Made by a program: the position numbers and the translations under genes | Origin: Xestospongia muta | Lineage: Eukaryota; Porifera; Demospongiae; Haplosclerida; Petrosiidae | Direction: 5' to 3' | Assembly (NCBI GenBank): GCA_963693285.1 | Contig: OY848917.1 | Location: 24,672,745-24,736,744 of the forward strand | DNA length: 64,000 nt | Notes under the pieces: model-generated | What the model saw: the letters and a program-made list of their open reading frames with translations, nothing else | Told to the model about the DNA's origin: nothing | Databases searched by the model: none | Part shown: in pieces, positions 1,576 through 62,700 of the stretch | How the letters are laid out: every line of letters begins with the position of its first letter | Numbering within the stretch: position 1 is the stretch's first letter

Positions 1576-4500
1576 CTCTCATGCTCTTCAGTATTGTTCC
1601 AGATGGAGAAAACTGTAGTGTTCTAACATGATTAACCAGATTTCTCTGTAGAGACTAGACTTATTTTTGACTGTGGCAGTCAGAAATCGTATTTTGACGA
1701 ATGCAACGAAAAAGATTCTCGTGTTACCTATTAATTCTGTGGAACTCCAAGTATCCATGCATGTGGTGATACTGGCTATCAAAACAAGAAATGGAGGGAG
1801 GTTTGAACTATCTGTCCTCACAGTGTCCTTTATCTATGAGCCTGTATTTGGACAACCTCTCTGTTATGCCATTGAAAGCCACCCTCATCTATCCAGATTG
1901 GACTTAGTGGATCCACCTAGTGATGGAGGTAAATTAACTATAATTGTTTTAATTGCATTTGATCATTATTGAAAGTTGGTGACTGGTGAGGTAACAGTAT
2001 CCTGCTGATTTAATGATTGACCCATTTTAACTAAATGGTCATATTGGCTATACAAATAAGGTTCTAGGTGATGAACTAGACTCTCAAGGTCTGTTAGTGC
2101 TTAGCTGAGATGAATGATACTCAAGAGATTAGTAGTCTACTGTCAAGTGAGTCCAATAGCTGTAACAATATCTTCAATTGTGAAAATGTTAGCTATCTCA
2201 GGAGGTTATTAAGAATCTGATATGTGTTTAAGTTTATTCTGATTTCTATTTTGAGAATCATATACTCTGAAGGACGTTCCATGGTGGTGGATTAAAGGAA
2301 ATCCACCAAATGGGACAGCTTAGTGCATATTTAACATTGAATGTCTTGTTACATACACATGTAGATGATAGTAGTGGAAGTTTCCATCCTTATTGGAGAC
2401 AGAGAGCACCTTGGAAAGCTCTCTTATGAAGGGTAAAGCCATGTTCTGTAAATTAGCAGGGCAGTGAGCCAGCTGAATGCTTCACTCTTTCTCGATAATT
2501 TAATGGCCCTCTGTAAAGAATTTGGAAGAGTACCATATAGATCATTGGCAGCAGTAGTATGTGCAATGTTCAACTTCCTATACCCAACAACAGCAACTTC
2601 CCAAGTACCTTTGCCTTCTTTTGTTGACACACTAGTCCCAAAAAAATGGTCTTTGCTTGAGAAAGAAGCTCTTCCTTGACAATTAGCCATATCTTGGGAG
2701 CATTAAGATAGTAACCATACTGATGATATATTTGGGCAAGATGGTCCCACCAGCGTCATAGGGCAGAAAGGTCACCAGACACAGATGTATCATATACAAA
2801 ACATGTTTGTTTTGTGGATTCATTAGATAGTTGAAGGATTAGGGGAATTGTGCCAATAGTATACATGTCCATAGCGAGAAAATCCCCTTGTATTTTGTTT
2901 GCCCTCTTGTGGTCTGATGGTTTCTCCATCGATGAAGAGATAAACATCTGATTGATATCTATTGATGAGCGTTCTGGCATGGGATAGGTATAGGTGAAGG
3001 ATGTTAATGAGAGCTGTTTGGAGGTTAAGTCAACTGAAGGTATTACAGGATCTAGCTGGATGACAGCATCAAAGTGTAAGGACATAGTCTCTTGCCTTGG
3101 AGGTATGATGAGATTTTGTAGTAGTGGTGGTGGTTTAATCATTGCTGCTTTCAGAGCTACTAATTCAGGGGCAGAAGCTTCTGCATATGCTCTGATAAAA
3201 TGTGCTAATTCTTTCACAAATGAATTTGCAGCATTGCCTGATGGAACCTTGAAAACATTTTTAAAGTCAGCTAGTGATCTAGACAAATAGAATTTGATAA
3301 CCAAAAATTTCATTTCTAGTGGACAAACTCAGCATAGCCGCTGCTGACAGATCAAGCAAGTGTGACGCCATCTACATTTCACATTATGAATAAAGTTTCT
3401 TAATCCAGGGAATATGAAAGTAGGTTATGCTCCTGAGGGGATGGAATTCTTTGTATCACAAAGTTGGACGTGGGTTGATTTGATTCTTGCTCCCCACAGA
3501 TGAGGATGAGCATGTAGAGGATGGCAATACAAATGGTGGACTTCTGTCCAAGTTCATATCAGTAGGGACTAATTCTGAGCTTTCCATATCAGAAGAGGGT
3601 TAGACTGTCTCTTGTTTTCTCTTGTCTTAGATCCAATGCAAAGATTGCGATGAAGGAAGAGGATCATTTTCACACTAACCGACAATGTGGCAGACAAGCT
3701 ACATAAGGTCTACCTGACATCTTACAGGAGCAATTCTTACAGTACCCAAGATAAGCTCGTTCTTCTAGAGAGGTTAAAGTTAGGTTCCAATCCTATTTTC
3801 CAACAAATCTAGTCATTTATGAGCTGACAGCAAACAAACTGGGAAAGTCACAATTTGGGCTATTTCTTGGTAATGAGAAAGTATAGAAATACAGATGATG
3901 GCTAGTTAATGCTAATATCTCACAATGAACAAAATATCCAGTCCTGTTAAATCCTAAACATAACCTGACATCACTGATTGTAAAGGAATGTCTTGAGACC
4001 ATTAAACATGGTGGTATAATAAAGACATTGACCAAATTACATTTAAGATTTGGAATGTTAAGGAGATATCATAAGCTATGACATCAGTGTGTGGCTAGTC
4101 AAAGATTTGATATATAGGACACCCTATCAACCACCTCCCCCTTCTCCACTACCCACATTTTGTGTAATGGAAGCATCATCCTTTATATATACTAGAAATG
4201 ATTTTCCTGGACCTCTCAAGACCAAAGCTGCTGATTTGACAAGGAGGCTGAGACATCTCAACAACACCATGGACCACTTTTGGGAAGGTTGAGGAAGGAG
4301 TATCTATTACAGTTTGAGACAGTGTTATATACTGCCATGCAAAGGGAGCACTCACTACTAATCTTGTGATCCAATTGTTATATATAGAAGGTATTGTTTT
4401 GGACTACGACCAAGATGAACTGAAGACATTCTAGTCATTAGCTAAGTTTGAAGACCTAATTAATGGCAATGATGTTCAAGTATGAGGAGTGACTGTTCGA

Positions 4501-8508: not shown

Positions 8509-11500
8509 CTAGAAAGTTATTTCCTTTATATACCTTTTAGCAGCTTGAGTGAACCCTAAAATTTGTAACTTTTCTTTCAAAGTGTCATTTGTAGCCTCTG
8601 GATTCCTCTCCCACCATTTTTTCAGCACCAAATATGCATGTGACTTGATACCACTGAATTGTTTCTGAATATCTCTCAGGTCATCATTAGAAACTTCCAA
8701 ACCGCCACATAGCTCAGAAAGATTTTTGTTGATGTGACGACTACATCGAAGGAGTACATTATCAGTCAGTAGCCTCTGTACAAAATATGAAGTATAACAT
8801 TGAAACATACAGAGAACCTGTGCTTTATCTGTTGGATCTTCTTCAGGTAAGAGGGAGTATGAAATAGATGGCCTTGTTTGCTTTGTGTGTCTCCTCCTTG
8901 GCATATCCTCTGGAGATGTTACTCTTCTTTTTTCATATACCTGTTTAGAAATTAACTTCTAAATGACCTTAACAATGGCTTGTACCTCTTTTTCACTCTG
9001 CCTTTCAACATAGGAAAATGTTTTTGAACGATTGTGAACCTGCAATTAATTGATTAGTAATACCTGTTACCAACTATCTTACTTCCAGTGTTCTGGTCTC
9101 CTCTGGAGGTGTGGTAACACCAGCTATCCTATACATAATAAAACAAATTGTTATTAACAAAAAATTAACCTTCTAAGCATAGAAAGTGAATGCTGTATTG
9201 AGATAGAAAATATACCTTTCAGCCAAATGGCCAAGGCCAATGTCACTTAATGCTTTGACAATGTCTTTTCTTTCACCACATCTTCTGTCCCAGTCAAACA
9301 ACAAATGAAGCAGTGGATTATTACTTCGAAATGGGTCTTGTCTGTATATTAATAATTTATGCAAGATGCCTAACTTTGCTGCCAAGTCATCAGCTTTTTC
9401 TCCCACAGCTTGTGAGATATCATACATTTCATCTTGTGAAATTCTTTTAAAGAGCTGTTAAAATTATTAAATAATTAATTTCTAATTAATTATTTATACA
9501 CACTTACCATTTCAGGCTTTTTATTGTCTTTGAACCAATGTCCTTCTTCACAAGTAGGTCTTCTAAAGACTTTGTTATTTGTACAACATAATGGAAGATC
9601 ACTTGTTTGATTCTTTACAACATTTAAGTAGTGCAGCTCTTGACCTTGACAATCATCAGAGAAACATACGTACTGAAGGCATCTGGATATTTTCAAACTA
9701 GTTAATGACTTTATGAAGTATGTGCGTGCAAAAAGAACTTCATCTACAGTGCTTCCTGCTGTTTCAATGATTTCTAACAAATTTTGACAAGCTCTATTAA
9801 ATGGACTAATTGATGAGCTGGCATTAGGAATGTACCGTAGAATTTCAACTTGGATGGCATAGTTAAGATCAGTGAAAATGACACGATCAATTGGTGGGTC
9901 ACCAAATTGAAAGGATACACGATTTCGATATATTCCACCTTCAAACGACAATGTGCAATGTAGAGATTGAGCAATGGTTGTGACAAAACGAGTAAAGAAG
10001 CCAGGAGGCACAAATTTTGTGCTAAAAGTGATGTGAAGGTATGTTGCTCGATCATAATAACCGGGCTCAGCTTGTAACTTCTCCTCTGAACATAATGGTA
10101 ACATTGCTGGTATGAAGAACTGTTTCACATCGGCGTAATGATATAAGTTAGTTGAAACCTCTGCTGCCAGGCAAAAGTGAACTAATAGTTCCATGATTGC
10201 ATCCGGTTCAAGATCACCATTGTTTTTCCATGCAGCTTTGTAATGATACTCTACAATCACTCCTTTCTCATATGCTAGAGACCTCTTTAAGCTTGTTTCA
10301 GTTTCATCACAACTGTCAAGTGTGAAAACTTTGCTCATGGTTTCAACAAACCATTTAGGGCTAATAATAACTTTCGACTGCAAGCTCTTTATATGAGGGT
10401 AGAAAAGAAGCACCCCTAACTCATGGTAGAACAAAAGAACTTTCGAGACATCATCAAAAGGTATTTTGCATCTGACACCAATGGCTTGAGCCTCCTCAAG
10501 GGTGAGAACATTTGCTTTATGTACTTGGATAATTTTACGAAATAGAACCCAACTAACTGGGGTCTTAACTACAAGATTTTTAAATGTAAAATCATGAATT
10601 GCTTTTCTTATCAATTTAAATGATGGATCTTCATTGTCACCTTTCCCTGATGTGGTGTTATCGACAATGATGGTGTCTATTATTAATTCTGCAAAAGCTT
10701 TTAACTTGTATTCCTTTATTAATTTTTCTCTCACTTCTGCCTTCTTTTCATCTGATTGTATTTGATCACCATGTGTGCCAAGACAGAACATGCGAGGGTA
10801 ATCAGAAATGGTCCCCGTGTCTTCATCTTTTCCAAGATGAACATGGATATTAGCCATCCAATTAAGCATGAGATTGAGTGTGCTTGCGCTGCTCTGCTCT
10901 CCTGGAACCTGTTTACCCTCGAATTGATGTACTGAGTGCCACCTTTCTTGAAAATCTTTTGAAGCATCAAAGAGTAAAAGAAACATGGTACGTGATGTGA
11001 GAAAAGCTGGAAGAATTTCGAGAAAAACAGGTTGGCCTCCACAGTCCCAAATATGTAGAAATGGCTGAGGCTTGAAAGTCATAATAACATCTTCAGAGAA
11101 GCCATTTGCATGCTCTATAGCTTCAGTGAGGACTTCATTGACTGTCGTCTGTTCGATACCCCTAATGTCATCTTCTAGTTGTAGTGTAGGTGAAGCCAAT
11201 TCAGGTGCAGAAAACAGAGCTACAGCTCTTGTTGTACTAGGTAGCAAATTGAAACTGGAAGCATTGCCATGAACAGCAGCAAGTAACTGGGCTAGCTCAT
11301 TTATTTCATCATCACGTGTAACTTTCCTCCATTTTTCATTGCTATCAAATGATGAAGTCTGCCATTCATGTGCAAATGGACGAACTGACTCAACATCTGA
11401 TATCATTGTACTGTTAGAGTTGGACTCCCATGGTAGCATCATCAACGAGCGCTTAAAACTGGTTTTACCAACTCCAGCTGTACCCAGTAACATAAGACGA

Positions 11501-11552
11501 GCATATGCGACGTCAACCTCATCTCCTTTGCAAAGGGATCTTTCATACGCTT
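8509..11552 (-). CDS. Roc-COR GTPase with two C-terminal Death domains (5' end not found)
   Basis: Five exons were placed by splice signals and matching phase: 11,552-9,508; 9,454-9,216; 9,128-9,083; 9,039-8,986; 8,940-8,509 (stop). They give about 937 residues. The first exon carries a Roc GTPase: P-loop GTAGVGKTS (about residues 20-30 of this stretch), WDCGGQP as the DxxG/switch II motif (about 167) and a THGD guanine-specificity motif (about 255). A COR region follows from about 329. Exon 2 encodes one Death-domain-like bundle and the last exon a second (about 845-935, 'LSELCGGLEVSNDDLRDI'), joined by a basic, serine/proline-rich linker. ROCO proteins are GTP-regulated scaffolds, and Death domains recruit partners homotypically. 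Exon 1 starts in phase 2 at an acceptor (11,553-11,554), so a 5' exon must exist; an in-frame ATG at 11,493 lies just before the P-loop. Confidence 0.85.
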
Positions 11553-12780: not shown

Positions 12781-14836
12781 GTTTATGAAGTGGCCACTGC
12801 TGTCACAGAAGGTACAATCAATAGCTTCGTGGATCAATGGGTGGGCAGGGTAAATGATGGATGAGTGTCCCCCACGAAGGCATGTTATTGCAAAGTGAAG
12901 TGGTGAGAAACTTAGTCTGCATCTAAGCCAGTTGAGTGTTTGGCTGTAGGATTGGTTGTGCTTGGTTGCAATCATAGAGGCCAACCCTTTTTGTAAACAA
13001 CATTGACAGTTGGTCCAATGTCACCATCTGTTGAGAAAACAAGGGGTGAAAAACAACCATGCTCAACTTCTCTCACTCATTGGTCATAAGCTCTTCTCTT
13101 CTCTTGCTTGTTTTGTCTGTAGCATATGGTCAAAGCGAGAGAGTAATAGATATATGTGAGGGGATTGAAAACCCCAATATCAAAAAATACATAATGTTAG
13201 CCACTTTCCCAAAAACCCTGTGCCATGACATTGAGGCATGATTCATCTTCACTGTTAGATGATTGAGTCTTTCATCACTAATTGGTTGTAGAGTAGGGCC
13301 AATCCCAACATTGTGGCAGACATCACTCATGAGATGGCCAGTGATATTCTTGATTTCATGGTGGTGGATTGAAGGAAATCTACAAAATGGGGCAGCTTAG
13401 TGCATATTTAACATTGAATGTCTTGTTACATATACATGTAGATGATAGTAGTGGAAGTTTCCATCCTTATTAGAGACAGAGAGCACCTTGGAAAGCTCTC
13501 TTATGAACGGTAAAGCCATGTTTTGTAAATTAGCAGGGCAGTGAGCCAGTTGAATGCTTCACTCTTCTTGATAATTTAATGGCCCTCTGTAAAGAATTTG
13601 GAAGAGTACCATATAGATCATTGGCAGCAGTAGTATGTGCAATGTTCAACTTCCTCAACCCGACAACATCAACTTCCCAAGTCCCTTTGCCTTCCCAAAA
13701 AAATGGTCTTTGCTTGAGAAAGAAGCTCTTCCTTGACAATTAGCCATATCTTGGGAGCATTAAGATAGTAACCATACTGATGATCTATTTGGGCAAGATG
13801 GTCCCACCAGCGTCATAGGGCAGAAAGGTCACCAGACACAGATGTATCATATACAAAACATGTTTGTTTTATGGATTCATTAGATAGTTGATGGATTAGG
13901 GGAATTGTGCCAATAGCATACATGTCCATAGCGAGAAAATCCCCTTGTGTTTTGCCCTCTTGTGGTCTGATGGTTTCTCCATCTATTGATGAGCGTTCTG
14001 GCATGGGATAGGTATAGGTGAAGGATGTTAATGAGAGCTGTTTGGAGGTTAAGTCAACTGAAGGTATTACAGGATCTAGCTGGATGACAGCATCAAAGTG
14101 TAAGGACATAGTCTCTTGCCTTGGAGGTATGATGAGATTTTGTAGTAGTGGTGGTGGTTTAATCATTGCTGCTTTCAGAGCTACTAATTCAGGGGCAGAA
14201 GCTTCTGCATATGCTCTGATAAAATGTGCTAATTCTTTCACAAATGAATTTGCAGCATTGCCTGATGGAACCTTGAAAACGTTTTTAAAGTCAGCTAGTG
14301 ATCTAGATGAATAGAATTTGATAACCAAAAATTTCATTTCCAGTGGACAAACTCAGCATAGCCGCTGCTGACAGATCAAGCAAGTGTGACGCCATCTACA
14401 TTTCACATTATGAATAAAGTTTCTTAATCCAGGGAATATGAAAGTAGGTTATGCTCCTGAGGGGATGGAATTCTTTGTATCACAAAGTTGGATGTGGGTT
14501 GATTTGATTCTTGCTCCCCACAGATGAGGATGAGCATGTAGAGGATGGCAATACAAATGGTGGACTTCTGTCCAAGTTCATATCAGTAGGGGCTAATTCT
14601 GAGCCTTCCATATCAGAAGAGGGTTAGACTGTCTCTTGTTTTCTCTTGTCTTAGATCCAATGCAAAGATTGCGATGGAGGAAGAGGATCATTTTCACACT
14701 AACCAACAATGTGGCAGACAAGCTACATAAGGTCTACCTGACATCTTACAAGAGCAATTCTTACAGTACCCAAGATAAGATTGTTCTTCTAGAGAGGTTA
14801 AAGTTAGGTTCCAATCCTATTTTCCAACAAATCTGT
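12781..14836 (-). mobile_element. Internally deleted RT-type retroelement with restriction-like endonuclease module
   Basis: Reading down the minus strand: 'SFVKELAHFIRAYAEAS' module (14,337-13,813), then 'LQRAIKLS' and 'KHGFTVHKRAFQGALCL' (13,739-13,480), a Cys/His knuckle ('CICNKTFNVKYALSC', about 13,430-13,390), then 'LMSDVCHNVGIGPTLQPIS' (about 13,335-13,270), 'GFWESG' and 'FFDIGVFNP' (about 13,220-13,140), and finally 'REVEHG', 'QTLNWLRCRLSFSPLHFAI' and 'CLRGGHSS' (to about 12,850). The knuckle followed by D...FFDIxVFNP resembles the zinc knuckle plus PD-(D/E)xK nuclease of R2-like non-LTR elements (inference). The RT domain expected after the first module is absent. Several frame changes and stops; dead. 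13,357-14,836 matches 2,272-3,807. Confidence 0.7.
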
Positions 14837-15229: not shown

Positions 15230-17405
15230 TCAATAACATGCTCCTATGATAAGACTACACAGCTATGTTACATCATTCCCATCATTCCTTAAATACATGT
15301 TACCTTTTCACAACTCCCTACATCTAATATATATATATATATATATACATATATATATACATACATACACACACACACATATATATACATATATATATAT
15401 ATTTAACTCACCTCTTTTTTCTTTCATCTTAGATTCCTAACACAATATAAATATTTGAATGTATAACTATGCACTTACCTCCTAATTTTGTAGAAATAAT
15501 CCCAAGAATTAAAAAGATAATAATAATAAAACAAGTACTTGTCATCTACTTACCACCTTGATTGAGGTTCAATAATATGTAATATTAAAATCATAAAAAA
15601 TTGAAAAAAATGACAACAATATTTATATCAGCCAAAACTACTCACCAACTAGAAAAAACAAACAAACATATCATGGTAAAGTATAATTTATGCAATTGAA
15701 ACATTGTTTAAAAGTGTTAAAATTATCTCATTGCATGCAGTATAAGTAATTTTCTGAGGTAGGTGCTTCTGCCCTGTGTAGTCAGGATTAACATGTCATT
15801 ATAATTAACTTTGTACTTAATACTTTGTACTTAATACTTGTACTTAATACTTGGGTTTATGACAGATATTGTGTACAATATTATATTTAGATGTTGTGAC
15901 CATTTTGAGGCAATCATTAAGAAAGAATGGTTAACCGCTAGAATTACTATAAATACAGCTTTTATATCTTGATACAAAACATTTGGTCATGCTTATAATT
16001 TTTTATTATGTATATATTATAAATTTTCAATTATTTAAAACTTACTTCCTGTATGTAGACATGGCAAATGTTTGGCAATGAGAACACCCAAAATGAAAAA
16101 AGTTAATAATACTAAATAAAATATTTGGACTTACCAGCTGAAATTTCATTGATATAAAGGGTATAAAATAGATAAAACAAAATTTATGTAAATAATAAAT
16201 AAGGATCAATCAAATTAAACTCACTTTCTAATATTGACAGAAAGACAAAAATTGAGCATGGGGTAAAGAAAATAGCTTATGAAATATTACTATAATTATA
16301 AATATTACTTACCACCTGTCATTATCATGTGCACATTGCATATAAAAGATAAAAAATTAAAAATATATATATATATAACTTACCGGCTAGAGATAAGAGC
16401 AAGAGCATGAAGAAAAGACACACGAGATAAAAAATTATGTCATTCTATATTATTTTGACTTACTGTCTTGTGCTGGAATTAAGTATGAGTATAGTACATC
16501 AGCAGAAGAATATAGCAAAAAACTTTGAACAATACATAATAATAGTGAATTAACTTACCCACTATATTCCACAAGCAAATTTGTTGCATTGTAATTAGGA
16601 CAGTAAATAAAAATACATATAGGAATAATATTTATTTATGAATTACGAATTAAACATTTATTAATTTAAATATTAATGTTTATATAACCCAAACATTGTT
16701 ATTCATAAAACTGTATTTATCATGGATTTTTTTTTAAAAACAGTGTACACATTATTAGTATATAGCCATATAAAAGACATTCAGCTAAAATTTGAAAAAG
16801 CATGAAGAGTAATTATTATATATATATATATCAATACTTTAATCAACGGTTTGGTAAATGCCATTTGGACATGTAAACCATACATTTTTTAAAATCTAGA
16901 ATACTTCATTGCAATTGTAACTTGTTATATAAACAGCAGGTTGCAATTTATATTATGTAATTTCATAAAAATTGAGTCTGTCTGATTTGGTAATCTATTT
17001 CTGTATTTAGTAATACTGAGCTTTGGAGTACAACCTTCATTACAATGAAGATGAAGTTTGTACTTAATAACCCAGTATTGCTATACTTTAGAAAAACTTA
17101 CTTGCTTTTCAGTTGCCATTACCAAACAGTTGTTAGTCTCTAGATAAAGATTGAAGTTCAATATTGTATAACATCATCAATGCTTTATTATAACTAATAA
17201 CAAACAATGCAGAACAAAGTGAACAACATTTAGTACTGTTACATGTTCTGTTAACTTTTAAAGTCAATTGTATTCTTTCACTGTACAAATTTCCTTTAGA
17301 GCTACTAAACAATAATAAATATATAGGAGGTGTCAATTTCAGGGAGATTGATGATGGTGCATGGGCAATTTTTTCCAAATGGGCACTTACATTTTTATTA
17401 TCCAT
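15230..17405 (-). CDS. Candidate micro-exon gene containing ten 3-nt exons
   Basis: A possible first exon starts with ATG at 17,405 and reads MDNKN up to a GTAAGT donor at 17,390. A second short exon ends CAA at 17,102 before GTAAGT; read from the ATG at 17,119 it gives MATEKQ. Ten units follow, each a 3' splice site (...AG), three bases, then GTRAGT. In transcription order the triplets are TGG, ACA, CCG, GTG, AAA, CTG, GAA, TTG, GTG, GAG: all sense codons in phase 0. Downstream a 25-nt exon (15,436-15,412), a 14-nt exon (15,317-15,304) and a terminal exon (15,262-15,230, ending TGA) keep the frame. The product would be a peptide of roughly 50 residues with no known domain. The array is seen directly; the gene model is inference. 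Alternatives are recursive (ratchet) splice sites inside one long intron, or a decayed tandem exon array. Confidence 0.45.
15328..15402. repeat. AT/AC microsatellite
   Basis: Alternating TA runs broken by TACATACA and ACACACACAC steps. It falls in a putative intron of the micro-exon gene. Confidence 0.95.
15479..16563 (-). repeat. Array of ten AG-NNN-GTRAGT splice units
   Basis: Triplets lie at 16,559-16,561, 16,464-16,466, 16,384-16,386, 16,314-16,316, 16,225-16,227, 16,135-16,137, 16,046-16,048, 15,646-15,648, 15,554-15,556 and 15,479-15,481. Each is preceded on the minus strand by AG, usually with a pyrimidine-rich tract such as CTTTTCTTCATGCTCTTGC, and followed at once by GTAAGT (eight) or GTGAGT (two). 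Spacing is 70-95 bases except for one 400-base gap (15,650-16,045), which holds a small TACTTAATAC tandem run. Sequences between the splice cores are not alike. Confidence 0.9.
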
Positions 17406-18260
17406 TTTACTTGGTCATGATTTTTCACTTAAGCTTGAGTCCTATATAGCTCTAAATTAAAAGCAAGGTTTGATCTAGGGTTGGGGAGGGGGGACAGAAG
17501 GTAATAGGATTAAAGCATAGCTTTGGGTGAGGTTAATCAAAACTGGGAACATGTACGGTCCTTGGTGAACTCTGCCCAAGATAGTGCTACATCATTTACA
17601 TAGCAACTGTTTTGTCTTAATTCCTGTTAGCATATGTGTATTTTCTTAAACCCTTGTTTGAGTAGCTCATCAGTATCTACCTCATTGTCCACCTAAAACC
17701 TAGAAACTCAACCGCCTACTCTCTCAGTGGAGACTTACTGGCTACTATTAGGCTGATTGTCCAAGAGGAGATGACTTAGCCTCAATCTCTACTTACCTGG
17801 CTCTTCATCATAATTACGTGTAGCCAAGTCATCAGAATTACGCTATCCAAGTAGTTGTTTTGCGCTGCCTAAACATTTCTTGGGAAGGGAAAAGTCTGAA
17901 AACCGTTGATAAAAGTTCTTCAAGTTATCATGTGAAATGGGTGTGTCTGAGAACAACGTAGATATTTTATTTCTAAGGAATATTGCATGTTTATGACGAC
18001 AATTATAATGGACAGGGTGTGGCTCGCCAATGACAGGCTGGTTTAATGACAAATGCGGGTTTGATCTCTAGTCTGTCCAGAATAATAGTAAACTTTAGCA
18101 TTTGTAGCATAATCTGGTATACCTAGCCTCTAATTTAGTCTTTGATATTATTCTCTTTCACACTACTCTTATACACATTTCGCATTGTTTAAAATATATC
18201 TACTTTTTTGTTTCTTTAAGTTTATTGCATCGCTAAGCATTGAGTGGTGAACGTTTTCAC
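17406..18260. other. Upstream of the micro-exon gene; one possible minus-strand exon
   Basis: A possible 46-nt minus-strand exon at about 17,846-17,801 reads RNSDDLATRNYDEEP between an AG and GTAAGT. A 69-codon open frame at 17,843-18,052 (minus) has no recognisable content and runs into a stop at that acceptor. Nothing else is supported. Confidence 0.3.
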
Positions 18261-28255: not shown

Positions 28256-31200
28256 TTATTTTTTCTCAGCAAATTCCATCTCCTGACTTATCTTATTACT
28301 AATTGTCAGGGAAAGATTATTGTCTTGACTAGGACTGCTTAGTCTGATCCATGTGAACTTATTCCTTTTGTTGTAAAGATAAATTATAAAAGTAATAATT
28401 CCAATGATCCCTGTGTCAAAGTGATAAGTCACACATGTATATAGTCAATAAAAAACTAACCCAAAACAATAATAATTACTGATATCACACTAAAAATAAT
28501 CATCACTAGCATATTGTTACTCTATATATATAGAGAAAGAAATAACAGTGAGTACAATATTAAGCTTCAATATATACTTTGTCAATGCTTGGAATATTTG
28601 TCTTTGTTACTGATGATGAAGCTAAAGTAACAAACATTAAATAACTGTAATGTTATATATACAACCTTACATTGATTAACAGTAGAACTCCATTTGTTAT
28701 CTGGAGTATTTATCTCTGCTACTGATGATGAAGCTAAAGTTACAAACATTAAATAACTGTATTGTTATATATACAACCTTACGTTGAATAACAGAAGAAT
28801 ACCAATCGTTGTCTGGAGTATTTGTCTCTGAGACTAATGATAAAGCTATAGTAACAATCGTTAAATAACTCAATTGTTATATATACAAACTTACATTGAA
28901 TAACAGTAGAAGTCCATTTGTTGTCTTGAGTGTTTATCTCTGCTACTGATGATGAAGCTAAAATAACAAACATTAAATAATTGTGTTGTTGAAAAGTCTT
29001 AGGCGAAGGGGTAATAGATGTGATCTCATCAGCAGACACGGCAGACATACATAAAGTCAAATTAACCATGACAGCACGTCGATGCATATATAATAGCTAC
29101 TTAACTTTACTTCCAATAATAATATTGTTGAAAAGTCTTAGGCAAAGGGGTAATAGATGTGAAAGGACATTTCAGACTTTATATTTGTCTAGACAACCAA
29201 TACTAAAAATCAATAAACAAAACCAAGCTATATATACAATACAACAACCAATCATGGTTAATTTTAACAACAGTGGGACAATCTATCTCACTAGCTTACT
29301 GGAGGGTGAAAAATAATCTAGGACTTTATATATGTCTGCCGCGTCTGCAGATGAGATCTCCTGTTAGAAGATCAAAACAACCTTGCTCACTTCAACCAAT
29401 TGTGATTTGTCAAGGACTCTATTCCACCCTACTCATTGATTGTTCCTATGGACTCCTTAGATGTATTTTGATTGGTTGTTGTATTGTATATATAGCTTGG
29501 TTTTGTTTATTGATTTTTAGTATTGGTTGTCCAGACAAATATAAAGTCTGAAATGTCCTTTCGCATTAAATAATTGTATTATTATATAAACAAACTTACA
29601 CTGAATAATATTAGAACACCATTCATTGTTTTCTTCACAAACAAGACAGTGTTTTCCACCAAACAGAGGTTGATAAGTATTTCTTGGACAATTATTGCAT
29701 GGTTCCATACCAGATTGGGAATATGAGCCAGGTAAACATAAAGCTGTACAAATGAGATAGCAAATCAATCAACATTGACATTAAAAATCATTAATTAATT
29801 ACGTTTACAGTCTGTTTCTTGTACTGATCCAATAGTTGAAGTTGAATAACTTTCTGGACAGTTATAGCATTCAACTGACCCTTGTTTGTTCTGATATTTC
29901 CCAACAGGACAAGCAGAACAAACAGGTAGATATTCATTACTATAATGTCCAGATTCCAGTGACAAATATTCTTTAACATAACCAGACCAGAATTCTCCAG
30001 GGGAACACGCAACTGTAAAAAGATATTGAAGTATATTTATAACTGTAATTTATTACATTATTTACCACAAAGTAAGTAGTTTGAGTTTAATTGTTGTCCT
30101 TCAGGACAAACATGTCTACGCTCATCAATAGTCAAAGTGTCAGGGACTACTTGATAGAAAATATTGTTGCTTTGAAATGTCATATTGACAGATCCACTAA
30201 AAATATCTTTAACTTTCTGTCGTACTATTTCAAGATCATATATTGCCAAGGAGAACGTTGTTGCTATTTCCTCAATAGATTGATATTCTATGTCACTTCT
30301 AGTGACATTAGCACTGTAAAGACTAAATCTTAGAATATTATGTTTGGGAAGAGTAGGATCTAATTGAACATTAAAGTTTTGAATATTTGCTGTACTTAGG
30401 TTTAATGCTCTTTGAATGTCAAGAAGAAGTTCATTTGAGTTTGATCCTGAGCCTGACTCAATACCAGAAGAAATGATGCCATTTGAATCTTCACTACAAC
30501 ATTGTTCTATTGAGAATTGTATAGGATAGGCATTTCTTGCAACACTTACTGGTAACAATGATAACTTAACAGGCTTTGATTTGGTCTTTCCATGTTCATT
30601 CTTTGCTTCACATTTATACCATCCTACATCTAAAAAAGTAGGTTTTACAAAATAAAGTACACTAGCATTTTCACCAGAAACCTCATCCCAACTAACATTA
30701 GAATGTCTTTTGAAGTACCACATCCAGGATGGGTCTGGTGTTGCAGTAGCATCACAACGAAGTTCAACACCACTTTCATCACCAACATACGTGCTGACAT
30801 CCTTTGGTTGTAAAGTGAGTTGTGGTATTTGGTAATATTTTACTACAGCACGATTGGATCTTGTGGTTCCAATTGCATTCACTGCTTCACAAACATAAAC
30901 TGCTTCATCACTTTTCTGAAAGTTGTTTATTGTTAATTCTGAAGTTTTAGCATTGGATACAATGAAGTCATTTTTCAGCCACCTGTATGTAAATGACAGT
31001 GAAGAAGTAGCTGAACATGTGAGGGTCACATTACTTCCACCTCTGACAAATAACTCAGATGGGGGTTGGATGGTAATATTAGGAATAGAAGCACACCAGT
31101 ATTCTAAGTCATTAATGGAGGCTACAACTTCACTAACTAGTGTCATAGTGTCTATAGCATTGTAAATAGTAAGATCTCTATTGGAAGTAAGTGAAGATAG

Positions 31201-34200
31201 TTTCAGAGTCATGTCTGGTATTAGTTTTAATATGGACTGAGTTTTATCTCCTGGAAGATCATTAAGAAGTATGACAAAAATATCTGACAATTGATTAAGA
31301 CAATCACTGAAACCAAAGCATCGATAACCAGCTATATGTTTTGTTTTGTTGTGATAGTCTTCCATTTCATTTATCCAATACTGAAAAGAATTCTCCAAAA
31401 CTCTTTTAGATAGACGTTTTAATATCAATTTGGTTGTATTAGCATATTTTGCTTGTTTTTTTGCAAGTTCATTATAGAATTTATTAGTTAGATTTGTACT
31501 CAATGAAAGTGTTTCATTCACACTCTCCTCAGCATTATTGATAGCAGACTCAATTATGGCACTTGATTCCAATGTATTATTGAGAGCATCTTCTAGTGAC
31601 TTGTTCACATAATTGAGATAGTTTTGTAACTTTTCAAGAGTAAAACAATTAGATTCAAAGAGGTCTGCAACATTGAATGGATCAGATGATTCTCTTCTTT
31701 GTACAGAGCGTTTTTTGACATTTATATTACCAACAGTTACAGATAATGCATGTTCTAGTACTTTCTCAGAAATCTTATCCTTGACTAAATTCAAAGGAGC
31801 ATTAAAATCAATCACAACACTGGTTTCATATGATGTATTAGAATAAGGTATTGCATATTTTATTTGAAGAGGAAAAACAACAGGTGTGGATGTTGTCATA
31901 GATACCCTTAATTGAATGGACAAAAGTTGAATCAAGTTTTCAGCAGCAGTATGATTTTTGAGCCAATTAACAAGTACAAGGTTTTCTTGGTTAGCTGCAA
32001 GTATCCGGTCATAGTTTTGCAAACTGGCATTGTATGCAAAGACTGCACTATTGTAAACATCTCTGGTAAGATTGAGTTGTTGCTCAGATACATTTCCTTC
32101 TGCTTCCTTTATTTCTAGTGTAATTTTTTCATTACGTTCATTTTCTATAGCAACAACAAGGGATTGGTGTACTGAATTAATTTTGACTAATGCTTCTGCC
32201 GATGCACCAGTTGCATTTATGAGTGCCTGTTGTTTCATTTCTCTGCACTGACTATTAGCTGTTGCACATGGTTCTTTGTCCAACTTGGTTGCACAATCAT
32301 AGAATTTCCAGCATATGTATGGTTTGCTACCATTGTATTGTTGTACAGGGCAAACAAATGCAATCTTTTGAATTACTTTTTCCATAGCATCAACAAAGGT
32401 CTTTTCATATCTTCCAGTCATACGACAAACTTTGTAACATTTATTAACTAGCCAAGGAAATGGTATTGGTATTGGTATTGAAATTGGAAGTGGTGAAATA
32501 CGTACACCTACAGAAAACCATTTGATTCCAAGCTTTTTTTTACATGATTCAACATATTCACAATAGGTTACAAATCTGGCCCTTGATTGTTGTGTCATAA
32601 TAGAGACTGGTTGATAGCGATGGCATGTACCATCTACACTGATGTATGTTGGTTTATAACATGTGACTGCTTTGCTCCCACTTTTACACATCTTTTCACA
32701 TTCAGAAATATCACACAGCTGATCAATATTAGATTTCATTGCTTCATTGATGTTATACACATCTAACAACTGATCAAGTTCATCCTGTCTTTGGTTTGTT
32801 ATGTTATTCCAGTAAACTATATCAGTCTTTGCTTTTTTCTGAGCTTGTGATATTGATAAATGTTCATACTCTAAAGTTTCAAGTTCAGCTTCTAAATAGC
32901 TAAGTTTTTCTTTTGCATTTTCCACATTGTTACTTGCTGTCAGTATTCTCTGCATTGTAAAATTTGTGGAATAATATATAAGCTCATGTAAATTGCTTTC
33001 TGTTTCTTGTTGAAAGGTATCTTCTCCTTGATCAAACAATACATCAATATTCAATACTTGAGACTCCCATGGAGTAGTTAATTCAGCAGATCCATTCAAC
33101 ATTCCTGAGTAATGAGTAAAGAATGTGACATGTTTTTGGAAGGATAGTTGGTCATTGAAGAAAATATCGGCAGCAATACTAATGTCAAAAACAGAAATGT
33201 TTACATCTGAATATTTGCCAGTCACTTGTCCATCTATAGCTACATCAATTATCATATGACTGTCAGTACTGGATAATTGTATAAATTTTCCCAAGTTCTT
33301 TACATTGCCTGAGTTGTGTGACATGATTCTTAGTTGTGTGTTTGGACTTTCAACCCAAAAGGGTAGTTTACCTGGTATTACCAATGTACTGGTTAAGCCA
33401 GGTATTAGAAGTCTTGATAGCCTTATGCCAAGACAATTGGAATTCATTGAGACCCATTGTGGAATAAAATCATTGACGTTAAATGAAATGAATATTGAAA
33501 CTGGACAGTTGGAGTCATCATCAGTGAAGAAAATGTTATTGAAACCATCAGTATTATATAATGGAGAGTATGTCATCATCATGACTATTCCTTCACTGAA
33601 CTGTAAATTATTGTCTATTAATATTAAATTTAAGTAGTAAAACCAAATTAAAAGAAAGGAAGACTTACCATTTATAATCAAAAGACCACTTTCATTAGCA
33701 GATTCTAAATGAAGTACCCACAAGAGGGACGTGATATCAATTGAACAATTCCCATCCAACTTCACTGGTGACTGTAAGATAACAGTAAGTAATCATTAGT
33801 TCAAAAAATATATCCTTACTTGATTTACACTGTTAATTTGTATGAATGTTTTTCCTGTGAATGATACACCAACTGTTAAATTGTGGTTTATAAGTGTTCC
33901 AGAGGCTGTAAGAGATAGTTCAGTATCATATAATGGAACATCCAGGAGCACACTTTGAGATCCATTCCAAAACATCTCATTGTTTATTAAGTCCAGACCT
34001 AATGATGACAATGTGCAAGTAATGAAATGGATATTCCAGCCTGCTATTTTGAACTGAGATATAGGGTTAAGATCTGTTAAAACATTTCCTGCCCTCTCTG
34101 TTAAGCTGATATGAAGTGATGCAAGTTGTCCTTGACAGATATCCAGAGCAAAACAAATAGGTCTACTCTGTACATGATATTGGTAAAGTAATTGCTGTCC

Positions 34201-37200
34201 TTTAACTCTAAGTTTAAGGTTTTCATTCACTCGAACTATGTAGTAAAGACTAGATGGTTTAAGAGACAACAGTTCACAACCTTGTATATCTTGAACCTCA
34301 TAAGCTGTCTTTAAGATTGCTAGGAAGTCATAATACTGAAGTGGGATTTCTTTATTACCATTAGAAAGAAGTTCAATATTTAATCCAACTGGAAAAATAT
34401 GGAGAACGTTGTTCAAAAATGTTTTGAACAAAGAATGAGATACAACCATAGCATGAGTATCAGATACATCTAAGTCCCAGTTAAAACATTGATCTGTGTG
34501 TCTTGAATCATGACGACATTGACCACAGTTAAGATTGTCATTGTTAATAGAGATATCCAAATTTTGTGATGATAGTGAAGCATTAACACCAGCAATAGAG
34601 ACAGGAAGCATTAGGTCTTCACTGTGAATGAATGTTATACCTTTGGTTTTGAATATAGTATTGTCATACCACATACATGAAGATGACAGGAACACATTCT
34701 GTAATGTGGAAATGCAAAAGTTTTGTTTGAAAGTAGTTATCTTCTGACAACAACCTGCCTTCACTATACCATTTTCTAAATTGTTTGAACTAAAGTACAC
34801 ACTAGAGAAAGAATCCAAATTTGATATCACAAGCAAAATGTTATTTTCAGGTTGTTGGTAATTTTCTTTAGTTTCAATTATATATTTTATGATGAACACT
34901 CCTTCAACATGAGGTGTCAGTTTAAAGCCAACACTTTTTGACCTTGGTGTAATCAACAACCGATTATGTGGTGATACAACAATTGATGAATCACACACAA
35001 TAATGACAGTAATATTTTGATTAGTGGATACATTTATATAAACCGTTTCTGTTTGGCTATTAACCTTAACAGCTGGAAATGCTGGAGTCTTGATGACAAC
35101 AGTTTCACAATATTGACCTGTAAAGTCCAGATTGCAATGACAAGATGGAGAATTATCATTTGCTACAAAACAAGTTCCACTATTTTGACAGGGACTGGGA
35201 TTGCAAGTTTCAATCTCTATACATGTGGAATTAAAAGACAATATTACAATAATAACTTATAAAAAAGAACTCACTAAGACATGTCTCAGGATCTGTCCAA
35301 GCAACGCTACCATTGTTCCCAAGAGAGCAAGTTTGCTTATAAGTAGTTTTGTTTTCTAAATGATAACCATCTTCACATATTAATGTACATGTTGAATTAA
35401 ATTCTGTGTAGCATGGCAAAACAATCAATGAACTGGTATTTGACTCTAATTCCTTGCAGTGCAATGGAAGACAAACTGAGTCTACTCCACTCCAAGTGCT
35501 GTTAGATAGACACTGCCTTATTGATGACCCTGATAAACTGTATCCAGTATTGCAAGTGAATAGACATGATTCATCAGTGACTTGAGGGCCAGTACAGTCA
35601 ATGAAACCATTAGCAGGTGACAATAATGTTGGACAAGGTAGTGGATCACAAGATTGGCCATCTTTTAGAAGAGTGTACCCTTCATTGCACTCACAACGAA
35701 AGCTTCCAGGTACATTGTGGCATGAGTGATCACAATCACCATTGTCAAAGTCACATTCATCAATATCTAATAGTATAAGACATAATTATGTATAAAATAC
35801 ACATATTATAGATAGATAGATAGATAGATGGATATATCAATATACTTGTGTTCATATATATAAATATTCATGCATGGATCTAAATCTGTAATTAATGTAT
35901 GCATGCATGCACAATATCCTTTAATTTACAATTATTAGATACTACCTAAACAAGTGCTATTATCAAATAGACTAAGATAGAATCCCTCTTTACAAGAACA
36001 GTTATATCGTCCCTCTAAACAGTGTTTATTAATACAAATCTGATTACAGCTTGATAAGTGCTCAAGGCATTCATCAATATCTAAGAACAAGAATAAACAC
36101 AAATAAAATAAAAAAATAAACACAAGCACGAGTCATACTCACCATTACAGGAAAAACCATCTGCATATAAATCACACCCAACTTCACAAGTACAACTGTA
36201 GTTTCCTTCATGATTTAAACAGATTTGGTGACAAATATGATTACCTTCTAAACACTCATCAACATCTGTGGAATGTGAATAAATATCATACAATGTACAC
36301 AGGTAATATATCAAAAATTTGACGTGATCATCTACCCAACCTCTGTTCAACTTACCTGTGCATAAATGCATGTCTATACTATCCTTGTAGTATCCAGGAT
36401 TACATGAACATATGTATGACCCAACTGTGTTAGTGCAATTTTGAGCACATCCTCCATTGCCAACAAGACATTCATTGACATCTATACTTTTACTGTAATA
36501 TTATGTTCTGTCAAAACATTAATTCATACCATTGCAACTATGTCCATCTGATCCTACTTCATATCCTTGTGGACAGCTACATGTATAACTCCCAGGAGTA
36601 TTAGTGCAATGGTCATCACTATAACAAGCATGAGTTCCATTTGTACACTCATTAGTGTCTATTGATTTATTAATATATGTACACATAAAATGAAAAAGTA
36701 CATTTACCAGTGCAGGTGTGTTGATCAGTACCAAGCTGATAACCATTTAGACAGACACACCGATAACTACCTTGTGTGTTTTCACATCGAGCAAAGCTGT
36801 GACAGCTGGCCTCTCCATTTTGACACTCATTAATATCTATATATGTTATAAACAGGAAAGATTAAAGATAAAATTGAAAATGCACTGTGAAATAATTATA
36901 TACAATAGCTTAAATGAATAGTTCAAACTAATTGGTGTTAACAGAATATTTTTATTGAGAAATACAACTTTACTTGTGTTGCAAACTTCATTAAAAAATC
37001 AAAGATGATCTTTGTGGTGTTACAAACATAAAAATGTTTTCAAAGCACGGATTAATGGCATTACTACACCAGACTAAAAATAGTGAGTCAGGCAAACAAA
37101 AAATAATTTTCTAGTTCAGAAAAAACAATTTGTTTGAAGAAAAAGCTAACAGAGACACTAAATGACCTAATTGAATAAGTTGAGTTTGGCAATATGAGTA

Positions 37201-59751: not shown

Positions 59752-62700
59752 TCAGTTATTTTTTCCAATCTCAGCAAATTCCATCTCCTGACTCATCTTA
59801 TTACTAATTGTCAGGTAAAGATTATTGTCTTGACCAGGACCACTTAGTCTGATCCATGTGAGCTTATTCCTTTTTTTGTAAAGACAAATTACAAAAGTAA
59901 TAATTCCAATGATGCCTGTGTCAAATGATAAGTCACACATGTATATACTCAATAAAAACTAACCCAAAACAATAGTAATTACTGATGTCACACTGACAAT
60001 AATCATCACTAACAAATTGTTACTCTATAGAGAAAGAAATAAAAGTGAGTAAAATATTGAGCTTCAATATATACTTTGTCAATGCTTGGAATATTTGTCT
60101 TTGTTACTGATGATGAAGCTAAAGTAACAAACATTCAATAACTGTAATGTTATGTATACAAACTTACATCGAATAACAGAAGAATACCAATCATTGTCTG
60201 GAGTATTTGTCTCTGAGACTAATGATGAAGCTAAAGTAACAATCGTTAAATAACTCAATTGTTATATATACAAGCTTACATTGAATAACAGTAGAACTCC
60301 ATTTGTTGTCTGGAGTATTTTTCTCTGCTACTGATGATGAAGCTAAAGTTACAAACATTACATAACTTTTTTATTATATAAACAAACTTACGCTGAATAA
60401 TATTAGAACACCATTCATTGTTTTCTTCACAAACAAGACAGTGCTTTCCACCAAACAGAGGTTGATATGTGTTTCTTGGACAAATGTTGCATGGTTCCAT
60501 ACCAGATTGGGAATATGAGCCAGGTAAACATAAAGCTGTACAAATGAGATAGCAAATCAATCAACATTGACATTAAAAATCATTAATTAATTACATTTAC
60601 AGTCTGTTTCTAGTACTGATCCAATAGTTGAAGTTGAATAGCTTTCTGGACAGTTATGGCATTCAACTGACCCTTGTTTGTTCTGATATTTCCCAACAGG
60701 ACAAGCAGAACAAACAGGTAGATATTCATTACTATAATGTCCAGATTCCAGTGACAAATATTGTTTAATATAACCAGACCAAAATTCTCCAGGGGAACAC
60801 GCAACTGTAAAAAGGTATTGAAATATATTTATAACTGTAATTTATTACATTATTTACCACAAAGTAAGTAGTTTGAGTTTAATTGTTGTCCCTCAGGACA
60901 AACATGTCTACGCTCATCAATAGTCAAAGAGTCAGGGACTACTTGATAGAAAAGATCATTGCTTTGAAAGATCATATTGACAGATCCACTAAGTTTTTCT
61001 TCAACTTTCTGTCGTACTATTTCAAGATCATATATAGCCGAGGAGAACAGTGATGCTATTTCCTCAATAGATTGATGTTCTATGTCACTTCTAGTGACAT
61101 TAGCACTGTAAAGATTAAACCTTACAATATTATGTGTAGGAAGAGTAGGATCTAGTTGAACATTAAAGTCTTTAATACTTGCAGTGTTTAGGTTTAATGC
61201 TATCTGAATGTCAAGTAAAAGTTCATTTGAGTTTGATCCTGAGCCTGATTCAATACCAGATGAAATGATGCCATTTGAATCTTCACTACAACATTGTTCT
61301 AATGAGAATTGTATAGGATAGGCATTTCTTGCAACACTTACTGATAACAATGATAACTTAACAGGCTTTGATTTGTTCTTTCCATGTTCATTCTTTGCTT
61401 CACATCTATACCATCCTACATCTGAAAAAGTAGGCTTCTCAAAATAAAGTACACTAGCATTTTCACCAGAAACCTCATCCCAGCTAACATTAGAGTGTCT
61501 TTTGAAGTACCACATCCAGGATGGGTCTGGTGTTGCAGTAGCATCACAACGAAGTTCCACACCACTTTCATCACCGACATATGTGATGACATCCTTTGGT
61601 TGTAAAGTGAGTTGTGGTATTTGGTAATATTTTATTACAGCACGATTGGATCTTGTGGTTCCAATTGCATTCACTGCTTCACAAACATAAACTGCTTCAT
61701 CACTTTTCTGAAAGTTGTTTATTGTTAATTCTGAAGTTTTAGCATTGGCTATGATGAAGTCATTTTTCAGCCACCTGTATGTAAATGGCAGAGAAGAAGT
61801 AGCTGAACATGTGAGGGTCACAGTACTTCCACCTCTGACAAATGACTCAGATGGGGGTTGGATGGTAATATTAGGAATAGAAGCACACCAGTATTCTAAG
61901 TCATTAATGGAGGCCACTACTTCACTAACTAGTGTCATAGTGTCTATAGCATTGTAAATAGTCAGATTTCTATTGGAAGTAAGTGAAGATAGCTTTAGAG
62001 TCATGTCTGGTATTAGTTTTAATATGGACTGAGCTTTATCTCCTGGAACATCATAAAGAAGTATGACAAAAATATCTGACAATTGATTAAGACAATCACT
62101 GAAACCAAAGCATCGATAACCAGCTATATGTTTTGTTTTGTTGTGATAGTCTTCCATCTGATTTATCCAATATTGAAGAGAACTCTCCAAAACCCTTTTA
62201 GATAGACGTTTTAATATCAATTTGGTTGTATTAGCATATTTTGCTTGTTTTTTTGCAAGTTTATTGTAGAATTTATTAGTTAGATTTGAACTCAATGAAA
62301 GTGTTTCATTAATACTCTCCTCAGCACTATTGATAGCGGACTCAATTATGGCACTTGATTCCAATGTATTATTGAGAGCATCTTCTAGTGACTTGTTCAC
62401 ATAATTGAGATAGTTTTGTAACTTTTCAAGAGTGAGGCAATTAGATTCAAAATGGTTTGCAATATTAAACGAATCAGATGATTCCCTTCTGTGTACAGAG
62501 CGTTTTTTGACATTTATATTACCAACAGCTACAGACAATGCATGTTCAAGCACTTTCTCAGATATCTTATCCTTCACTAAATTCAAAGGAGCATTAAAAT
62601 CAATCACAACACTGGTTTCATATGATGTATTAGAATAAGGTATTACGTATTGTATTTGAAGAGGAAAAACGACAGGTGTGGATGTTGTCATAGATACCCT

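Follow-up and report, generated by a model that had tools for sequence, protein, structure and literature searches.

Putative one-codon exons in tandem ahead of a ROCO GTPase domain in the sponge Xestospongia muta

Can a gene place nearly every codon of a segment in an exon of its own? The question is raised by the minus strand of a 64,000-nt window of the Xestospongia muta genome (the whole stretch of DNA analysed, C1:24672745-24736744; the genome searched comprises 158,027,690 bases in 28 contigs), in which a pattern search finds ten AG-NNN-GTRAGT cores at 15473-16563. Further matches on this strand lie at 17096, the donor end of the predicted start exon, and at 17733. The preliminary description read the ten cores as consecutive 3-nt micro-exons, with recursive splicing as the alternative. 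From the sequence we consider it very probable (roughly 0.9) that the ten sites are exons of a ROCO GTPase gene (P1), nine holding one codon and the other holding three, spliced in sequence so as to link a start exon with a 25-nt exon (Table 1). Joined in this way, P1 would read MATEKQ-W-HKT-P-V-K-L-E-L-V-E-ESKMKEKR-E-AYERSL... into the Roc-COR exon as one open frame with the chain in phase 0, and the earlier claim that all ten triplets are sense codons sharing one phase with the flanking exons is thereby borne out. The chain exons measure 3 or 9 nt, and the closing 25-nt exon shifts the phase. Of the nine introns that separate the ten exons, eight span 68-89 nt and one 397 nt; besides the short intron listed in Table 1, the first intron of the gene has 540 nt and that before the Roc exon 3859 nt.

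Table 1. Predicted exons of the window gene P1 and the frame downstream, in transcript order (positions within the window)
Feature	Position	Strand	Remarks
Start exon ATGGCAACTGAAAAGCAA (MATEKQ)	17102..17119	-	donor GTAAGT; paralogue start exons MAAEEQ, MAFKK
TGG (W), one-codon exon	16559..16561	-	P2 codon identical
CACAAGACA (HKT), 9-nt exon	16464..16472	-	3-nt reading is ACA, 16464-16466
CCG (P), one-codon exon	16384..16386	-	P2 has CCT
GTG (V), one-codon exon	16313..16315	-	identical in P2 and P3
AAA (K), one-codon exon	16225..16227	-	identical in P2 and P3
CTG (L), one-codon exon	16135..16137	-	identical in P2 and P3
GAA (E), one-codon exon	16046..16048	-	identical in P2 and P3
TTG (L), one-codon exon	15646..15648	-	identical in P2 and P3
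GTG (V), one-codon exon	15554..15556	-	GCA in P2, GCT in P3
GAG (E), one-codon exon, weak acceptor	15479..15481	-	AAG in P2, GAG in P3 (P3 by eye)
GAATCTAAGATGAAAGAAAAAAGAG (ESKMKEKR + 1 nt), 25-nt exon	15412..15436	-	intron ahead is 42 nt
Roc-COR (ROCO GTPase) exon	9490..11552	-	span is the open frame to the stop ending at 9490
Death-domain-like frame, downstream of Roc-COR exon	8509..8958	-	PF00531, E 1.5e-4, 22.2 bits, just below cut-off 22.6

The identity of the gene is given by the exon at 11552, in which a Roc domain (PF08477, 37.7 bits, cut-off 27) is followed by COR-A (PF16095, 46.9 bits, cut-off 35.3). Four Amphimedon queenslandica proteins, the ones that carry a source name among the 120 listed of 967 ROCO protein matches, show 45-48% identity. 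The chain is absent from the 14 homologous proteins compared, most of which have their start within the Roc exon or shortly before it, the matches being mostly genome frames. Searched against the genome itself, the Roc query returned 141 matches, 63 of them at 238 bits or more, and two of these 63 carry a stop. Two near-identical minus-strand frames at 2756-3328 and 13813-14352, the second inside the 3.86-kb ROCO intron, probably belong to a mobile element. Elsewhere in the window, tandem arrays with a 112-bp unit and nearly the same consensus occupy 28590-28990 and 60087-60421, and large minus-strand frames at 30058-36500 contain stretches that appear EGF-like by eye. Rfam (gathering threshold) and tRNA scans found nothing in the window.

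The placement of the cores is far from random. Within 15400-16600 of the minus strand, 10 of 11 GTRAGT donors have AG exactly three bases ahead, against 5 of 71 in the rest of the window (3/35 on the minus strand and 2/36 on the plus strand; Fisher p = 1.4e-8, binomial p = 3e-11), in agreement with the ten units first reported. Over the whole window the core occurs 15 times, compared with a mean of 4.2 in shuffled sequence, and 15 was reached in none of 100 shuffles. Using a model trained on two paralogues only, and scoring against the 3796 AGs of the minus strand, we find the ten P1 acceptors above expectation (combined p 4e-5 when site 2 is scored as a 9-nt exon). At this second site, the acceptor of the 9-nt version CACAAGACA ranks in the top 0.7% and that of the 3-nt version (ACA) in the top 36%, and for this reason the site is probably a 9-nt rather than a 3-nt exon. 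GAG, the last triplet, has a weak acceptor (top 66%), and the 25-nt exon behind it a middling one (top 39%). These observations bear on a reading in which the cores arose by chance, mark a cluster of protein-binding sites, or belong to a decayed repeat without a role in splicing. The cores could indeed be a gapped DNA motif, and the region is AT-rich; however, the enrichment and the acceptor strength speak against such an origin, as do the same order of units in paralogues, the avoidance of stops and the blocks preceding ROCO exons on C1 described below, and we consider it extremely improbable.

Two related ROCO genes on the same contig carry corresponding chains. P2 (locus L029) lies about 212 kb from the window gene, with chain matches at C1:24900667-24901083, and its frame, MAAEEQ-W-K-R-V-P-V-K-L-E-L-A-K-QAKQKEKR-K-AFEKAL..., would be assembled from a start exon at L029 1284-1301, twelve separate one-codon exons and, again, a 25-nt exon. 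P3, with its Roc exon at C1:24911795, reads MAFKK-SKLPP-V-K-L-E-L-A-E-ETKIRERR..., in which SKLPP is one 15-nt exon and the last two codon exons were read by eye. In all three genes, 12 codons separate the start exon from the 25-nt exon, divided among 10 (P1), 12 (P2) and 8 (P3) exons; site 2 of P1 (HKT) corresponds in position to three one-codon exons in P2 and the 15-nt five-codon exon in P3. The run GTG-AAA-CTG-GAA-TTG, on five separate exons, is identical across P1, P2 and P3. Between the chains of P1 and P2, 6 of 12 codons and 25 of 36 bases agree in order, and six matches were obtained in only 18 of 200,000 order shuffles. The introns, in contrast with the codons, are hardly alignable: six P1-P2 intron pairs give alignment z values of 0.1 to 2.7, with faint similarity in two (z 2.2 and 2.7), and five P3-P2 pairs give -0.7 to 1.2.

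Three-base exons are hard to define. The codon exons might thus be cassettes, skipped at random or under regulation to give a mixture of peptides of varied length, and each of them is frame-neutral. Brown algal ROCO genes, whose in-phase tandem LRR exons are alternatively spliced according to the part of PMC11378527 considered here, offer a parallel. The 12-codon length, kept in three paralogues despite a different division into exons, points the other way; its constancy suggests that transcripts of the C1 genes normally contain every codon. We regard such skipping as possible, if rather doubtful.

To what extent are such chains found at other ROCO loci? Our phase-0 chain search looked between a start exon and a 25-nt exon for exons 3-45 nt in length and took its splice models from P1 and P2, and it is therefore circular for these two genes. 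It returned nine 3-nt exons in P1, 12 in P2 (plus three doubtful ones of different length upstream), 5 in P3, 8 each in C12a and C12b, and 16 in C10, the start exons of C12a and C10 being guesses. In 80 control stretches of 3 kb, the mean was 0.19 three-nt exons and the maximum 2. A candidate 25-nt exon is present in P3, C12a, C12b and C10. Among 30 ROCO loci taken with 1.5 kb upstream, chains are seen in ten (L032, L033, L049, L053-L058 and L060), and the locus of the window gene itself (L031) stops short of its own chain at this length. No convincing chain was seen within 1.5 kb upstream of the other 19, of which 17 are closely related ROCO exons (L034-L048, L050 and L051) in a cluster at C5:6.3-6.9 Mb. 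Adjacent units at the C12, C11 and C5:2.74 Mb loci appear sequence-related by eye. In the unit introns of L049, L053 and L056, an TATGATGATAAC-like word, perhaps a branch point, can be seen by eye about 20-45 bases ahead of the acceptor.

The triplets also avoid stops. Across nine regions, chosen for holding chains or arrays, AG stands at exactly three bases in 169 of 176 GTRAGT, a share that partly reflects this choice of regions; the 169 triplets include no stop, against 5.4-5.7% expected (P about 5e-5 to 9e-5). A genome-wide pattern of three successive GTAAGT units with gaps of 109-139 gave 4841 matches (reversed-pattern control, 55); since the units are largely copies of each other and not independent, the effective sample is far below 4841. 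The first triplet of these matches is TAA or TAG once and TGA never, compared with 148 for AAT/GAT, 131 for ACT/ATT and 83 for CGA, which differs from TGA by one transition. The sole stop-first triple (TAG, C12:2899957-2900257) has a ROCO exon, at C12:2912275, about 12 kb downstream of it.

Stop avoidance and codon conservation together weigh on the alternative offered in the preliminary description, namely, that the cores are recursive-splicing ratchet points at which a long intron is removed stepwise, leaving the triplets out of the mature RNA. P1 sites and ratchet points share an acceptor closely before a strong donor; however, in the part of the literature drawn on here (PMC8605326), ratchet points have AG and GT juxtaposed, with no intervening base, and the mRNA usually lacks the exon, whereas three bases separate them at all ten P1 sites. 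The host intron would moreover be short, and stepwise removal predicts neither the retention of the triplets as codons between paralogues nor their avoidance of stops, both of which are seen. We thus judge ratchet points highly improbable, and both they and a chance or binding-site cluster are rejected for the window because the codons are conserved between paralogues. What stands of the original proposal are nine 3-nt micro-exons, backed by the paralogue chains and by stop avoidance; the tenth, site 2, does not, given its probable 9-nt length.

Where might such chains come from? A common repeat unit is absent from the P1 introns: the inter-core stretches compared share only cores, AT-rich runs and short matches, as initially stated, and in a DNA search of its own genome the P1 locus finds only itself as a full match, the other matches listed falling on a TA-rich stretch near 15320-15420. 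The triple pattern with gaps of 56-86 finds 21 places (five in P1, four in P2 and 12 in tandem repeats on C2, C6 and C7), a number that proves nothing in itself because the reversed control gave 101. With gaps of 84-114, the triple GTAAGT pattern gave 312 matches (control, 58). Places were taken, for this and the 109-139 pattern, from the first 100 of each among the matches listed, and three array stretches were analysed: L065 (C5:2000500-2010400, 55 units), L066 (C1:7148500-7158400, 32 units) and L067 (C1:8345000-8348500, 12 units), the last immediately ahead of a ROCO exon. On average, the units of these arrays differ much more in the codon than in the intron. Pairwise differences at the three codon positions are 0.73/0.71/0.48 in L065 (54 units), 0.58/0.77/0.51 in L066 and 0.68/0.62/0.44 in L067, versus 0.103, 0.167 and 0.099 in the respective introns, where only 1 of 107, 3 of 132 and 1 of 133 columns reach 0.6 (fixed splice-site columns excluded). 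The tandem origin considered at the outset is thus not visible in the unrelated introns of the window and is plain in these younger arrays of tandem copies.

The array codons end in A or T in all 55 units of L065, all 32 of L066 and 11 of 12 of L067, and within L065 and within L066 almost every amino acid has a single codon. In L065, Pro is always CCT (13/13) and Ser always TCT (11/11), with two codons for Leu; in L066, unlike L065, Pro is CCA. The codon in L065 is associated with intron columns 19-24 upstream (z 4.0-5.7; other columns up to 3.6), and in L066 the z of the codon-intron column association never exceeds 1.4, a pattern that fits recombination between units without proving it. These data bear on whether the exons were made by duplication of an intron together with its codon or by intron-like insertions between pre-existing codons. 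Near-identical introns with a variable codon in all three arrays (mean intron pi 0.10, 0.17 and 0.10), as well as exactly 12 codons in the three C1 paralogues despite their differing exon number, would suit insertion. However, each codon boundary would need to be hit, and always in one phase; the near one-codon-per-amino-acid usage within an array suggests copied units; and the tie between codon and upstream intron columns in L065, not found in L066, argues in the same direction. We consider insertion unlikely and favor duplication of intron-plus-codon units.

On the minus strand of C1:8.18-9.05 Mb, each of the 75 array hits listed has a ROCO exon on its own strand no more than 12.8 kb downstream, these hits being only those listed for the AAT/GAT and ACT/ATT first-triplet patterns. 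Under a uniform null, which ignores the clustering of hits in blocks, a mean of 19.1 and a maximum of 33 of the 75 would fall within 15 kb. The 75 hits fall into 10 blocks, and from the end of each it is 0.9-3.0 kb to a ROCO exon; 10 of the 15 ROCO exons in this region are preceded by such a block. L066 precedes exons that resemble ankyrin repeats by eye, and the three frames downstream of L065 gave no Pfam match at cut-off. A further repeat class has a longer spacing. Two-unit patterns with 4 or 6 bases between AG and donor match 22,673 times (control, 1,599) and 22,494 times (control, 37) genome-wide, respectively, and the 100 places listed for each are nearly all on C1:10784752-10816398 and share many units, which must therefore read AGAGNNNNGTAAGT. 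These units, spaced near 145 bp, may represent exons of 6 nt or else a non-coding satellite. Because the 4- and 6-base patterns abound, the three-base spacing holds for the regions read and not for all repeats of the genome.

Introners are dispersed insertions. Like the arrays, they place many near-identical introns in one genome; unlike them, the array copies stand in tandem, each with a single codon, and near-identical introns are found within L065, L066 and L067 and not in the window. Among known systems with very short exons, Schistosoma micro-exon genes (MEGs) are described, in the part of PMC10526429 considered, with exons of 6-81 bp (3-81 is also given), mostly of 15 bp, introns of 0.1-5 kb and secreted products. 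They resemble P1 in having very short exons in runs, mostly multiples of three, with which automatic annotation struggles, and the P1 sequence likewise gives consecutive micro-exons of lengths mostly divisible by three. However, nine P1 exons would have 3 nt, its introns are mostly shorter than 100 nt, and its product would be a ROCO GTPase. The brown algal ROCO genes are built, as far as the consulted sections of PMC11378527 describe, from 72-bp exons of one LRR each, subject to exon shuffling and diversifying selection; P1 shares with them the ROCO family and in-phase tandem exons ahead of Roc, but each P1 exon is one codon, and LRRs were not seen. That a 3-bp exon can be spliced is documented for Drosophila homothorax (hth) and for RPS24 (PMC7392893, PMC12686416 and PMC11162997, each in the portion considered), with one 3-bp exon in hth and three successive micro-exons in RPS24, neither being a chain of one-codon exons in these accounts. 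No description of such a chain appeared among the matches listed by full-text searches of open-licence PubMed Central papers.

As a plausible mechanism, splicing of the chain would be intron-defined and proceed stepwise across the short introns, each junction placing the next GTRAGT donor directly behind a single codon. The chain would place a peptide of 12 residues, W-HKT-P-V-K-L-E-L-V-E, in front of the Roc domain, and this peptide might have a linker-like role. It may have arisen by tandem duplication of units of an intron plus one codon, as in the younger arrays. The introns would then have drifted, and the loss of some would have merged codons into exons of 9 or 15 nt. In young arrays, where introns are nearly alike, recombination inside them could insert, remove or rearrange single codons and leave the frame intact, and such an array would be a fast-changing peptide-coding segment with single-codon resolution. 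We tentatively extend this to a general model, to which we give slightly less than even odds: the genome would hold codon arrays, i.e., satellite-like tandem repeats transcribed within ROCO and other genes, each unit consisting of an intron and an exchangeable codon, with recombination editing the peptide codon by codon without frameshifts. The result would be fast-evolving, possibly individual-specific segments on intracellular signalling proteins, of which the window gene would be an old, frozen 12-codon member.

A segment in which nearly each codon is its own exon would stand at the practical limit of splicing definition, and a one-codon exon chain would offer a naturally occurring test case for intron definition in the absence of exon definition. 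Annotation with the usual aligners probably misses one-codon exons. If the codon-array reading is true, these loci would be a new kind; and the arrays, if expressed as proposed here, would amount to exon shuffling of single codons, allowing peptide variation without risk to the reading frame.
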